Position numbers and translations under genes: made by a program. A stretch of 64,000 bases of DNA, from contig JACQDN010000031.1 in NCBI GenBank assembly GCA_016201105.1, positions 1 through 64,000 on the forward strand, read 5' to 3'. This stretch comes from Pseudomonadota bacterium (GTDB lineage: Bacteria > Pseudomonadota > Alphaproteobacteria > Micropepsales > Micropepsaceae). Position 1 is the stretch's first letter, and each line of letters opens with the position of its first letter. The notes beneath the pieces are model-generated. The model was not told the origin of the DNA, ran no database searches, and worked only from the letters and a program-made list of their open reading frames with translations. This document shows, piece by piece, positions 47,210 to 52,600 of this stretch.

Positions 47210-49447
47210 ATGCGCGGGAGTTGCTTCGGCTGGGGGATGCGTTTGCGTCAATTTACTGCGCGCCGTGCGGAACGACTTGCACTCGTTCTCTTTGCGCTGA
47301 TCGCCCTTGGCGCACCCACGCTCGCGCGCGCAGATAATGTCGTGGCGCGCGATTTTTCGACCTATCGTCCTAGTATCGCCGCGACGCGCATCTCGTCCAA
47401 GGATGCGCCGAAGATCGACGGCGATATTTCCGATGCCGTCTGGAGCAAGGCACCGGTCATCGACGAGTTCTATCAACTCGAACCGCATGAAGGTCAGCCT
47501 GGCAGCGCCAAGACGGTGGTTCGCATCCTCTATGATGAGAATAATCTCTACTTCGCGCTGCGCGCCTACGACGATCCTTCGCAGATCACCGCCAAGGTGA
47601 AAGTGCGCGACGGCGAGATCGACCAGGATGACGTTTTCCGCATCTATCTCGATCCGAACATGACACGGCGCGATGCGTACGTCTTCGAGGTCAATCCTTT
47701 GGGCGCGCGGCGCGAAGGCTTGATCCAGAACAATTCGGATGTGCTCTACGAATGGAACACGCTGTGGGACGCGAAAGCGAAGATCGTATCGGACGGCTGG
47801 GCGGTGGAAGTCGCCATTCCGTTCCGCAGCATTTCCTATGAACGCGGGCGGAAGGATTGGGGCTTCGATCTCTTCCGTTTGATCAGGCGCAAGAACGAAC
47901 GCATCCGTTGGTCCGCGATCGACATCCGCATTCCGTCGCGAGACGTGTCGCGCTCCGGCACGCTGACGGGAATCGAGGATCCCGCGGAAGGCTTGGGCCT
48001 GGAAGCCAGGCTCTTCGGCACGCTGAGATATCGCCGCGTCTGGGACAAACCGGGCGATGCCGATGCCAACGCGCGGCCGAGCGGCAACTTCTACTACAAG
48101 CTCACGCCGGATCTGACGAGCACGCTGACGTTCAACACCGATTTCTCGGATGCGCCCCTCGACGCGCGGCAAGTGAACATCACGCGTTTTGCACTTTTCT
48201 ATCCCGAGACGCGGGATTTCTTCCTTCAGGATGCCGCCGCTTTCGAATTCGGCGGCAACAACATGAACAACGACCAGAACGCGCGGCCGTTCTTTTCCCG
48301 TAATATCGGTTTGGTGAATGGAACCGCGACCGATTTGAATGCGGGGCTGAAGCTCTCCGGCCGGTACGGCGGCTTCGATATCGGCGCACTTTCGGTGAAG
48401 ACCGCCGATTCGCCCGGCGCACCGGGACAAATCCTTTCGGCGGTGCGGGTGACCACGCCGGTGCTCGAAGAATCCAAAGTCGGCCTCATCTATACGAACG
48501 GCGATCCGACGGGCGAAACCAATAATCAAGTCGGCGGCGCCGATTTTCAGTACCGCAACTCTCATGTGTTCGGCAGCAATACGCTGGAAGGCGACGTCTA
48601 CTACGAGCGCAGCAAATCGAGCCTGTTCGGCGACGACGATTCCTGGGGCTTCAGCGTCAACTATCCCAACGAACCGTGGAACGGGAATTTCCGCTTCAAG
48701 CAGGTGGGCGACAACTTCGCACCCGCGCTCGGCTTCGTCGCGCGGCCCGGCATTCGCGAATACAACGGCCAGATCGTCAACCGCACGCGTTTCTCCGACG
48801 GCTATGTGCGCTGGGTGGAAGCCGGGACATGGTGGGACATCTTCACCGGTCTCGACAACAACCTCCAATCCCGTCTCAACGGCGCGTGGACGGGCGCGTT
48901 TACGAACGACGGCGATTTTTTCCTTTTCGAAACCTGGAACGACAACGAAAGAGTATCGGCGCCGTTCACATTGCCGAGAAACGTCGTGGTACCGGCGGGA
49001 GACTTCACGTTCGAAGTTTTCCACGGACGCGTCGAGAGCTCCTACAGCCGCCCGGTTGCGCTCATCCTCGATGTGCAGTGTTGCGGTTTCTTCAACGGAC
49101 AACTGCTGCAGACCGATACGACGCTCGATATTCGGCCGGACTCTACGTTCTCCTTCAAGCTGCGTCACATCATGGATGCGATCGACCTGCCTTCGGGCAA
49201 GGTCACGATCCACATCGGTTCGATCAACGCCGGCGTGAATTTCACGCCCGACATGCAGCTTCTGGCACAAGCCCAGTACGACAACGTCAGCGATCAGTTC
49301 GGGTTCTCGCTGCGCTACCGCTGGGAGTTTTCCCCGGGATCGGAATTGCTCGTGGCCGCGGGCGACAACGCGACGATTGCGGGCGGCCGCTACCTTTCGC
49401 ACGAAAGCGCGCTCTCGATCCGGCTGGGGCACACGTTCAGGCTATAG
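47210..49447 (+). CDS. DUF5916 / CBM9-like outer-surface protein
   Basis: A 745-residue exported protein. The signal peptide is RLALVLFALIALGAPTLARA; the start is 47210 or 47237. Residues of about 60-250 resemble the family 9 carbohydrate-binding-like domain at the front of DUF5916 proteins (PKIDGDISDAVWSKAPVIDEFYQ, YDENNLYFALRAYD, DQDDVFRIYLDP, WAVEVAIPFRSISY). The rest looks like a beta-barrel (alternating strands such as FYYKLTPDLTSTLTFNTDF, LYYPETRDFFL-type FALFYPETRDFFLQDAAAFEF), ending in SIRLGHTFRL. The C-terminal aromatic/Leu end fits outer-membrane insertion by BAM. No known substrate. It is a single gene converging on dnaE. Confidence 0.88.
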   Translation: MRGSCFGWGMRLRQFTARRAERLALVLFALIALGAPTLARADNVVARDFSTYRPSIAATRISSKDAPKIDGDISDAVWSKAPVIDEFYQLEPHEGQPGSAKTVVRILYDENNLYFALRAYDDPSQITAKVKVRDGEIDQDDVFRIYLDPNMTRRDAYVFEVNPLGARREGLIQNNSDVLYEWNTLWDAKAKIVSDGWAVEVAIPFRSISYERGRKDWGFDLFRLIRRKNERIRWSAIDIRIPSRDVSRSGTLTGIEDPAEGLGLEARLFGTLRYRRVWDKPGDADANARPSGNFYYKLTPDLTSTLTFNTDFSDAPLDARQVNITRFALFYPETRDFFLQDAAAFEFGGNNMNNDQNARPFFSRNIGLVNGTATDLNAGLKLSGRYGGFDIGALSVKTADSPGAPGQILSAVRVTTPVLEESKVGLIYTNGDPTGETNNQVGGADFQYRNSHVFGSNTLEGDVYYERSKSSLFGDDDSWGFSVNYPNEPWNGNFRFKQVGDNFAPALGFVARPGIREYNGQIVNRTRFSDGYVRWVEAGTWWDIFTGLDNNLQSRLNGAWTGAFTNDGDFFLFETWNDNERVSAPFTLPRNVVVPAGDFTFEVFHGRVESSYSRPVALILDVQCCGFFNGQLLQTDTTLDIRPDSTFSFKLRHIMDAIDLPSGKVTIHIGSINAGVNFTPDMQLLAQAQYDNVSDQFGFSLRYRWEFSPGSELLVAAGDNATIAGGRYLSHESALSIRLGHTFRL

Positions 49448-49494: not shown

Positions 49495-49694
49495 CCTCCC
49501 CGCTTTGCGGCTAGGGCATGCACAGATCTTTCAGAGTCTTTCCAATGGGTTGGCGAAAGAGTTCGAAGATACGCTCACTTTTTGACCGTCGACATTCGCA
49601 AAAATTTGGTGGGCGACATGAGCTAAGTCATTGATGACGATTCTTTTTTTGAACCGAAGAGAAGTGTGCATGCCCTAGCGCTTTGCGGGGGAGG
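49495..49694. repeat. CCTCCCC-type hairpin, interrupted by the MITE-like element
   Basis: If the 168-bp insert and one target copy are removed, the sequence closes into one hairpin: left arm CCTCCCCGC (49495-49503), loop TTT, right arm GCGGGGGAGG (49685-49694). This resembles the CCTCCCC hairpin at 29-49. It lies between the converging DUF5916 gene and dnaE, so it may once have been a terminator, though no T-run follows. Just upstream, CCCCGGA/TCCGGGG with an ACAGG loop (about 49471-49489) forms a further small hairpin. Confidence 0.7.
49511..49678. mobile_element. MITE-like non-autonomous element (168 bp)
   Basis: Perfect 14-bp terminal inverted repeats CTAGGGCATGCACA (49511-49524) and its complement (49665-49678). 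They are bounded by a perfect 10-bp direct repeat CGCTTTGCGG (49501-49510 and 49679-49688), as expected of a target-site duplication. The 140-bp inside is less GC-rich than its surroundings and has no credible ORF. It lies 21 bp past the dnaE stop, on the side of the converging DUF5916 gene. The parent transposon cannot be named from the ends alone. Confidence 0.85.
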
Positions 49695-49699
49695 AAACT

Positions 49700-52600
49700 T
49701 CAGACCGATTCCACGGCGGCCACGCCCGGCAGCGATTTGATTGCGCCTTTCATGGCCGCGGTCACCTGCTGCTTTTGCGGCAGCTTGATCTCGACTTCCC
49801 GTCCGGCGCTGCCGGGCACGACAATCGTGACAATGCCTTTGCCCGGCTGGCGCAATTGCCCGGCGATGGCGTTGAGCGTGCTGGTATCCTCCAGATAAAT
49901 GCGCAGCCCTTCGCCGGCATCGGCGGCCGCCTTTTCCAGATCGGTGGCCGAAACGGCGCGCAGCTTGAGTTCGTCGCCTTCCCACGTCGCCGTTGCCTTC
50001 AGCAGCACCGATTTTCCCGCTTCCAGCAAGGGACGCGACGCCGAAAGCACTTCGGGAAAGAACATCACTTCGAACATGCCGGTGGGATCGGAGAACGAAA
50101 CAAAGGCGTAGTTCTGGTCGTTGCGCCCGCGCCGTTCGGACTTGCGGATGATGGTGCCCGCGAGCAGCACCAGGAACGAGCTTCTGCGGTCCTCCAGGAT
50201 TTGCGCGTACGTCGTGGCCTGCATGCGGGTGAGCGCGGTTTTCGAATTGTCGAGCGGATGACCCGACAAATAGAAGCCGATGGCGCTGAACTCTTCGCCA
50301 AGCCGCTCATGCGAAGGCCATTCGTCGACCTCGACCAGGCGCAGATCGTCTTTGTCGGATGCCACTTCGCCGAACAGCGTCGACTGGCCGCTTTCGCGCT
50401 CGCGCGTGGAACGCGCGGCATCGCCCAAAATGATGTCGGCGGATTCCACCAACTGGCGCCGATTGCGGCTGAGGCCATCGAAGGCCCCTGCCCGCACCAG
50501 GCTTTCGAAGGCGCGCTTGTTGACGAGCTTGGGGTCCACGCGGCGCGCGAAATCCGCGATGCTGCGGAACGCTCCTTCGGCGCGGCGCACCGCCACGACA
50601 TGTTCCATCGCCTGCTTGCCGACACCCTTCACGGCCGCAAGCGCGTAGAAGATGAGACCCTTCTGCGCATCGCAAGCGAAATAGGATTCGGACCGGTTGA
50701 TGTCCGGAGGCAGCACGCGCACGTTCAGCCGCTGCGCTTCCTGCTTGAAAATGTTGAGCCGATCGGTGTTGCCGATATCCAGCGTCATCGACGCGGCGAG
50801 AAATTCGACCGGGTAGTTCGCCTTGAGATAGGCGGTTTGATAAGCGACCTGGGCATAGGCCGCGGCGTGGCCTTTGTTGAAGCCGTAGCCCGCGAATTTC
50901 GCGGCCTGTTCGAAGATCTGCTCCGCAATCGACGGCAAAATGCCTTTCTCGCCCGCGCCTTTGATGAAACGGTCACGGTGCACTGCCATTTCGGAGGCGA
51001 TCTTCTTGCCCATGGCGCGGCGCAGAAGATCCGCTTCGCCCATGGAATAGCCAGCAAGCTCGCGCGCGATGCGCATGACGTCTTCCTGGTACGTCATCAC
51101 GCCGTAAGTTTCGTTGAGCAACGGCTCGAGCGCGGGGTGCAGATATTCCGGCGCCTCCTTGCCGCGCTTGCACGCGACATATTTCGGAATCGAATCCATC
51201 GGGCCGGGACGATAGAGCGCCACCAGCGCGACCAGATCGTTGATGTGGTCGGGCTTCATCTTGCGCAACAGATCGCGCATGCCCGCGCCTTCCATCTGGA
51301 AGACGCCGACACTTTCGCCGCGTGCAAGCATTTCGAAGGTAGGAGAATCCCCGAAATCGATATTCTGAGTGTCGAGATCGATGCCGCGGCGCTTGAGCAG
51401 TTCCTCCGCTTTGGCGATGACAGTAAGCGTCTTCAGACCCAGGAAATCGAATTTCACCAGACCGGATTTTTCGGCGTCCTCATAGTCGAACTGGGTGACC
51501 GGCATTTCCGAGCGCGGATCGCGATAGAGCGGCACCAACTCGTCGAGCGGGCGGTCGCCGATCACTACGCCGGCCGGATGGGTCGAGGCATGGCGATAAA
51601 GCCCCTCGATCTTGCCGACGATGGAGAAAAGCTGCTGCGCCAGCGGCTCTTGGTCCACCATGCCTTGCAGGCGCGGTTCGCTGTCGATGGCCTCCTGCAG
51701 ATGAATCGTCTTGCCCGGCGGATTGGGAATGAGCTTGGCGATGCGGTCGACCAGGCCCAGCGGCATTTGCAGCACACGGCCGGTATCGCGCACCGCCGCG
51801 CGCGCCTGCAGCGAGCCGAGGGCAATGATGTGCGCCACGCGATCGCGGCCGTACTTGTGCTGCACGTAACGAACGACCTCGTCGCGCCGCTCCTGGCAGA
51901 AATCGATGTCGAAGTCCGGCATCGAAACGCGTTCGGGATTGAGGAAGCGTTCGAACAGCAGACCGAAGCGGATGGGATCGAGATTGGTGATGTCGAGCGC
52001 CCAGGCGACCAGCGATGTGGCGCCGGACCCGCGCACGCCGACGGGAATGCTCTGTTGGCGTGTCCACTTCATGAAATCGGACACGATCAGAAAGTAGCCG
52101 GGGAAATCCATCTTGATGATGACGCCGAGCTCGTATTCGAGCCGGTCGCGATAGACCTTCTCGTCGGCGAACATTCCATGTGCCTTGAGCCGCGCGGTGA
52201 GGCCTTCCTCGGCCTGCTTGCGCAACTCATCGGCGGGCGAGAGGCCGGACTCCGGTACGAACTGCGGCAGGATGGGATCGCGTTTTTTCGGGCGGAACGC
52301 GCAGCGCTTGGCGATTTCGATCGTGTTCTCGATCGCTTCGGGCAGATCGGCAAACTGCGCCACCATTTCCGCCGCGCTCTTGAAGCGGTGCTCGCGCGTC
52401 AGCCGGCGGCGGTCCTGCTGCGAGACAAAGGTGCCATCGGCGATACAGAGCAGCGCATCGTGAGCTTCGTACATGTCGGCCTTGCCGAAATGCACATCGT
52501 TGGTGGCCACGAGCGGAAGCCGTTTGGCATAGGCCAGATCGACCAGCTGATCTTCCGCCGCACGCTCTTCGGGCATGTTGTGGCGCTGCAATTCGACGTA

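Follow-up and report, generated by a model that had tools for sequence, protein, structure and literature searches.

A MITE at the apex of a REP-like palindrome behind dnaE, and a clade of IS50-like elements with matching ends and a similar target

Introduction

The entry of IS elements into REP palindromes is already known from several families. IS1397 and ISKpn1 target REPs at a fixed position with transposases unrelated to the one considered here, and ISPpu9, ISPpu10 and ISPa11 (IS110) as well as ISPsy8 (IS3) share a fixed REP position with the elements described below, again with unrelated transposases. Within the IS4 family the habit is represented by ISRm22 of Sinorhizobium meliloti, all copies of which lie at the axis of a REP palindrome, some without matching direct repeats, according to the relevant passages of a 2006 study (PMC1525189). 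ISRm22 has been placed in the IS4Sa subgroup (PMC2266710). The IS4 family as a whole makes direct repeats of about 10 bp, and the absence of a frameshift is one of its defining traits (PMC2266710). Members of its IS50/Tn5 subgroup have the end consensus CW------Y---CA-A--W-, a length of about 1.4-1.5 kb, direct repeats of 8-9 bp and a DDE transposase with the YREK motif, encoded by a single ORF without frameshift (De Palmenaer et al., 2008, PMC2266710). The CGTC REPs are reported to have no dedicated transposase, and their association with transposase genes has been regarded as merely fortuitous (Di Nocera et al., 2013, PMC3733652).

Here we describe a short element in a Micropepsaceae genome, found in a stretch of 64,000 nucleotides (contig JACQDN010000031.1, the window), together with the elements in other genomes that share its ends and its kind of target. 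The IS50-like clade to which these belong, its MITEs, some of them with REPs, and a conserved -1 frameshift are apparently new; no report of such a clade, of its REP-apex habit or of its MITEs was found in the open-access literature, to which the search was confined.

Results

The element is flanked on one side by a hypothetical gene that ends at 49447 and on the other by the 3' end of dnaE, which is on the minus strand with its stop codon near 49700. It spans positions 49511 to 49678 (168 bp, no strand assigned), has no ORF of its own and has a G+C content of 45%, against 62% for the window. Its left terminal inverted repeat, CTAGGGCATGCACAGATCT (49511 to 49529, plus strand), shows no misfit to the IS50-subgroup end consensus (PMC2266710, Table 1) and the right one, CTAGGGCATGCACACTTCT (49660 to 49678, minus strand), a single misfit; the two are perfect inverted repeats over 14 bp and agree at 17 of 19 positions over the whole end. 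The terminal sequence can also be given as CTAGGGCATGCACA. Two copies of CGCTTTGCGG, the target-site duplication, abut the element at 49501 to 49510 and 49679 to 49688 (both plus strand), and these belong to the left half, CCTCCCCGCTTTGCGG(GGGAGG) at 49495 to 49510, and the right half, at 49679 to 49694, of an interrupted REP-like palindrome (no strand assigned to either half). When the window was scanned for perfect 12-bp inverted repeats at a spacing of 60-3000 bp, bordered directly by a direct repeat at least 7 bp long, this was the only pair recovered (in two registers), and 20 shuffled windows gave none, so that the 14-bp inverted repeats and 10-bp duplication of the initial annotation are borne out. 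The boundary is formally ambiguous, because the direct repeat starts with C and finishes with G: ends of 15 bp (GCTAG...) and a duplication of 8 bp would fit equally. In relatives whose duplications do not start with C (AGGCCACAAG, GTTTATTAAG) the end is at CTA and the duplication is about 10 bp. Rfam and terminator scans returned nothing. Its ends, its direct repeats and a second genomic copy identify it as a non-autonomous IS50-type element: it is short, has terminal inverted repeats and a target-site duplication, carries no transposase gene and is present in more than one copy, while an autonomous partner with the same ends is found in other genomes, with none detected in its own genome or genus. 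The reading as MITE-like thus stands, with ends and target type common to many other genomes; it is a real MITE, and ordinary in kind.

Rejoining of the flanks gives CCTCCCCGCTTTGCGGGGGAGG, a hairpin with one bulged base, the left arm having four C and the right arm five G; the initial annotation, which had called this hairpin perfect, was slightly wrong in this respect. The rejoined site folds at -8.7 kcal/mol (z -1.7) and is only moderately unusual, 7% of local 34-mers folding equally well. The main point about the target, missed in that annotation, is that the hairpin belongs to a palindromic repeat: CTCCCCCGC-N4-GCGGGGGAG occurs in 68 uninterrupted copies in the genome, with none for the reversed control pattern, and the element interrupts a slightly degenerate member. 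This REP (CCTCCCCCGC...) has no CGTC tag and is of a different type from the CGTC REPs. The uninterrupted copies are often paired as inverted dimers at a distance of about 145 bp (for example C45:2160-2330, C11:79528-79698 and C16:60656-60825).

One further copy was recovered in the genome, likewise at a palindrome apex. Contig C37 ends in 67 bases that match the left portion of the element throughout (67/67); the contig stops inside this copy, as often happens at repeats, leaving its right side unseen, and the copy is preceded by CACCTCCCCCGCAACGGCG, half of the palindrome. Its right flank is predicted to be CGCAACGGCGGGGGAGG, and its reconstructed site is a perfect hairpin (-14.5 kcal/mol, z -6.1). 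This copy lies within a REP dimer, whose second REP it breaks, and the empty site is visible in aligned, uninterrupted paralogous dimers on C45 (two), C11, C67 and C47. Behind dnaE, the element is absent from all 27 related dnaE gene ends read (about 66-76% identity), and the hairpin and REP are absent from them too, so that none offers an intact site or an empty allele of the same site.

Elements with the same ends occur in other genomes. An exact match to the 22-base left end was found in a Rhodospirillales MAG (G069), and a search of this genome with degenerate ends alone yielded several diverse elements, all in palindromes, including L031 and L049, in which the duplication CGCGAAAGCG/CGCTTTCGCG lies within CGTCATCCCCGC-GCGGGGATGACG. 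A pattern of half-REP plus end, a search biased towards REPs, was matched in 24 of the 317 genomes examined from the same order. A 194-bp MITE occupies no fewer than four places in G621, and there is a 226-bp MITE in G623 and a 191-bp MITE in G656; in G195 a half-REP contains this left end. The MITE duplications in G621, G623 and G656 are nearly all of 10 bp, and in these three genomes and in G069 elements with the shared ends lie in a REP apex, flanked by a 10-bp duplication. Targets in the four genomes, and in G543 (see below), take the form CGTCATCCCCGC-loop-GCGGGGATCCA, and the flanks of L049, L115 and L119 have the CGTC tag, 8-9 bp stem, 4-5 base loop and CCA tail of CGTC REPs.

The MITEs of G621, G623, G656 and G069 (L112-L117, L119, L031) also carry CGTC REPs as cargo, mostly as inverted pairs. 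At L118 (G623:C273, 259-393) one element is apparently inserted in a REP inside another MITE, a nested REP-apex insertion, and a solo 23-bp left end inside a CGTC REP (L032, 6906-6928, in G069) appears to be a one-ended remnant. Exact 19- and 22-base end searches of viral contigs gave no match; a looser search gave one REP-apex copy (L037) and a chance match within a gene (L038). L036, L048, L060, L061 and L063 were likewise chance matches inside genes, and a plasmid search with the MITE as query returned only noise.

The initial annotation predicted that this genome or a close one contains an autonomous relative sharing these ends. Such relatives exist, as IS4-family elements of IS50/Tn5 type, in other Alphaproteobacteria; no transposase of their CTA-ended clade was found in the draft assembly or in 68 congeneric genomes. 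On contig C196 of G543 a 1475-bp IS with ends CTAGGGGATGCACACATCT / CTAGGGGATTCACACATCT, neither with a misfit to the IS50 end consensus, lies in a CGTC-REP apex. The protein it encodes has matches to the NCBIfam model NF033590, an IS4 transposase (E 2e-88), and to the Tn5 transposase in the PDB (2e-24), the Tn5 match running over residues 52-434. By eye, we noticed no resemblance between its interior and that of the window element. Further transposase-coding copies lie at REP apices on contig ends in G484 and G614, and tblastn against plasmids identified relatives in Sinorhizobium, Rhizobium, Bradyrhizobium, Ochrobactrum, Methylosinus, Nostoc, Kovacikia, Acaryochloris and Picosynechococcus. 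Every end of the plasmid relatives starts with CTA, and their duplications, where intact, are of 9-11 bp, mostly 10. In a tree, the CTA-ended elements are set apart by a branch with 100/100 support, on the other side of which lie Tn5 and the IS50 relatives with CTTTC ends. The end consensus, the IS length of about 1.4-1.5 kb and the DDE transposase with YREK motif (YRQRWTIEQFFRTLK in L111) are shared with the IS50/Tn5 subgroup (PMC2266710), whereas the CTA ends, the mostly 10-bp (9-11) rather than 8-9 bp duplication, the REP-apex target, the separate branch and a transposase split between two overlapping frames by a -1 shift are not. Since the transposase of most CTA-ended IS is not encoded in a single unshifted ORF, we refer to an IS50-like clade and not to plain members of the IS50 subgroup. 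The genome itself holds a complete IS50-type IS with an unshifted transposase gene at a contig start (G000:C58:1-1562, L067). This 1562-bp IS was considered as a partner of the MITE and rejected, as its ends (CTTTCGATTACCCACAATT) share about 9 of 19 positions with those of the MITE and it falls on the other branch of the tree.

In most CTA-ended IS the LGRFGDRRLEK motif is encoded in one frame and the transposase core in another, with a -1 shift at a run of A4-6G4-7 that lies between the N-terminal DNA-binding part and the core. The run was noted at 153-162 of the IS at L111 and in L135-L143, L150, L152 and L154; frames were called by script, and a few IS were assigned another frame owing to further gene breaks. 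Reading through the run restores the Tnp_DNA_bind domain in Nostoc L141 (E 2e-8), weakly in L111 (0.004) and not in L139. A Pfam PF14706 search for IS50 transposases in the order of G069 mostly missed them because the frameshift splits that domain. The conserved shift contradicts the stated IS4-family hallmark (PMC2266710). The name of one NCBIfam model, IS4_FS_Nterm, suggests, on a reading of the name only, that NCBI curators are aware of such cases.

Targeting was examined in 17 plasmid IS picked by transposase homology alone. Counting outer-arm pairs gave too low an estimate of the palindromes, and folding and arm permutation were used in its place. In 12 of the 17 the 34-base empty site is among the most stable 5% of local 34-mers (binomial P about 1e-12), compared with neither of two CTTTC-ended IS, a very small control. 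Permutation of right arms between sites reduced the mean stem from 6.8 to 4.8, and 0 of 1000 permutations reached the observed value; therefore the arms covary, their sequences differing while complementarity is kept. The centre of the duplication coincides with the palindrome axis in most sites; copies occupy a fixed REP position, as in known REP-targeting IS. Insertion at a hairpin apex, as claimed for the window element, proves general for the family, in copies found by their ends as well as in those picked by homology.

Discussion

It is very probable that the MITE behind dnaE was moved in trans, by an IS4-family transposase of the CTA-ended, IS50(Tn5)-like type, into the apex of a REP palindrome. 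Such a cut-and-paste DDE transposase would bind the 19-bp ends CTAN(2)GNATNCACANNTCT, and its transpososome would join these ends to a target of two-fold symmetry, in this genome the 68-copy repeat, with the two strand joints staggered by about 10 bp around the REP apex; gap repair would then duplicate the 10 apex bases. We infer that a transposase of the clade moves the window element, and from the 67-bp identity of its two copies that this movement was recent. The recognised feature is presumably symmetry or palindromy, as judged from present positions, which are also shaped by selection against insertions in genes.

Because the arms covary, one constant arm sequence cannot account for all of the targeting; recognition of a hairpin, recognition of two-fold symmetry and a preference for REPs in themselves are not told apart by this result. 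The hairpin could be incidental to the same element and clade, if the transposase had a simple C/G-rich CCC-N-GGG preference that frequent REPs happen to fit, and we give this reading somewhat less than an even chance. Comparable sequence preferences are those of IS231 and for the G/C ends of Tn5 targets. Most targets do have C-rich left and G-rich right arms, REPs are abundant (68 copies in this genome), a dimeric transposase favours symmetric sites anyway, and four or five of the 17 sites (L135, L136, L150, L152 and marginally L141) are not strong hairpins, the preference therefore not being absolute. Yet the arms vary and stay complementary (L133 CTTCTCTCCA, L131 GGTTCCCC, L049 CGTCATCCCC), stems are destroyed by right-arm permutation, and the axis is at the centre of the duplication in most sites.

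The initial annotation had hinted at structure-directed target choice. The data are compatible with it; REP sequence, or two-fold symmetry matched by a transposase dimer, explains most of them too. In its strict form, with an extruded cruciform or hairpin preferred over a linear symmetric site, we think it unlikely. Covarying arms and the apex position would agree with extrusion, as would 10-bp flanks that are reverse complements and not direct repeats in the G543 IS (L111), two G621 copies (L113, L114) and Rhizobium L139, and nearly so in L142. Most duplications, however, are direct repeats of the usual kind, close to one helical turn in length, as for B-form targets, and the inverted flanks can also be explained by quasi-palindrome correction, through template switching between half-REPs, or by recombination between copies, which the ISRm22 passages of the 2006 study propose for copies without matching repeats (PMC1525189). 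A non-mobile origin, as an inverted repeat formed by chance or as a composite hairpin of the dnaE terminator, suggested by the position directly behind the dnaE stop codon, is refuted by the second copy elsewhere in the genome and has next to no standing given the same ends and target in other genomes, the empty shuffles, the lack of any terminator-like site and the absence from all 27 relatives.

A similar habit is that of ISRm22, which likewise has a REP-axis target and some copies without matching direct repeats; it differs in its IS4Sa placement and reported 6-bp repeats, and MITEs go unmentioned in the passages concerned (PMC1525189). In contrast to the fortuitous association reported for CGTC REPs (PMC3733652), the IS clade and its MITEs sit in CGTC-REP apices, and some of the MITEs carry such REPs. 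Tentatively, and with more doubt than confidence, we propose a widespread clade, in Alphaproteobacteria and cyanobacteria, that picks palindromes by shape or symmetry, uses a conserved, programmed -1 frameshift and has MITEs whose CGTC-REP pairs serve as later targets. If this were true, MITE cargo would be a transposase-driven route for the spread of CGTC REPs, which have no known dedicated transposase. In the system described here a Tn5-like transposase, MITEs and REP palindromes, as a rule studied separately, come together, and extragenic palindromes serve as landing sites by which the element avoids genes. Arm covariation makes recognition of structure or symmetry by a well-studied type of transposase testable, with the Tn5 structures as template. 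Two IS50-type IS outside the CTA clade, in Pseudosulfitobacter (L168) and Halococcus (L169), likewise lie in palindromes, and the habit may thus extend beyond this clade.
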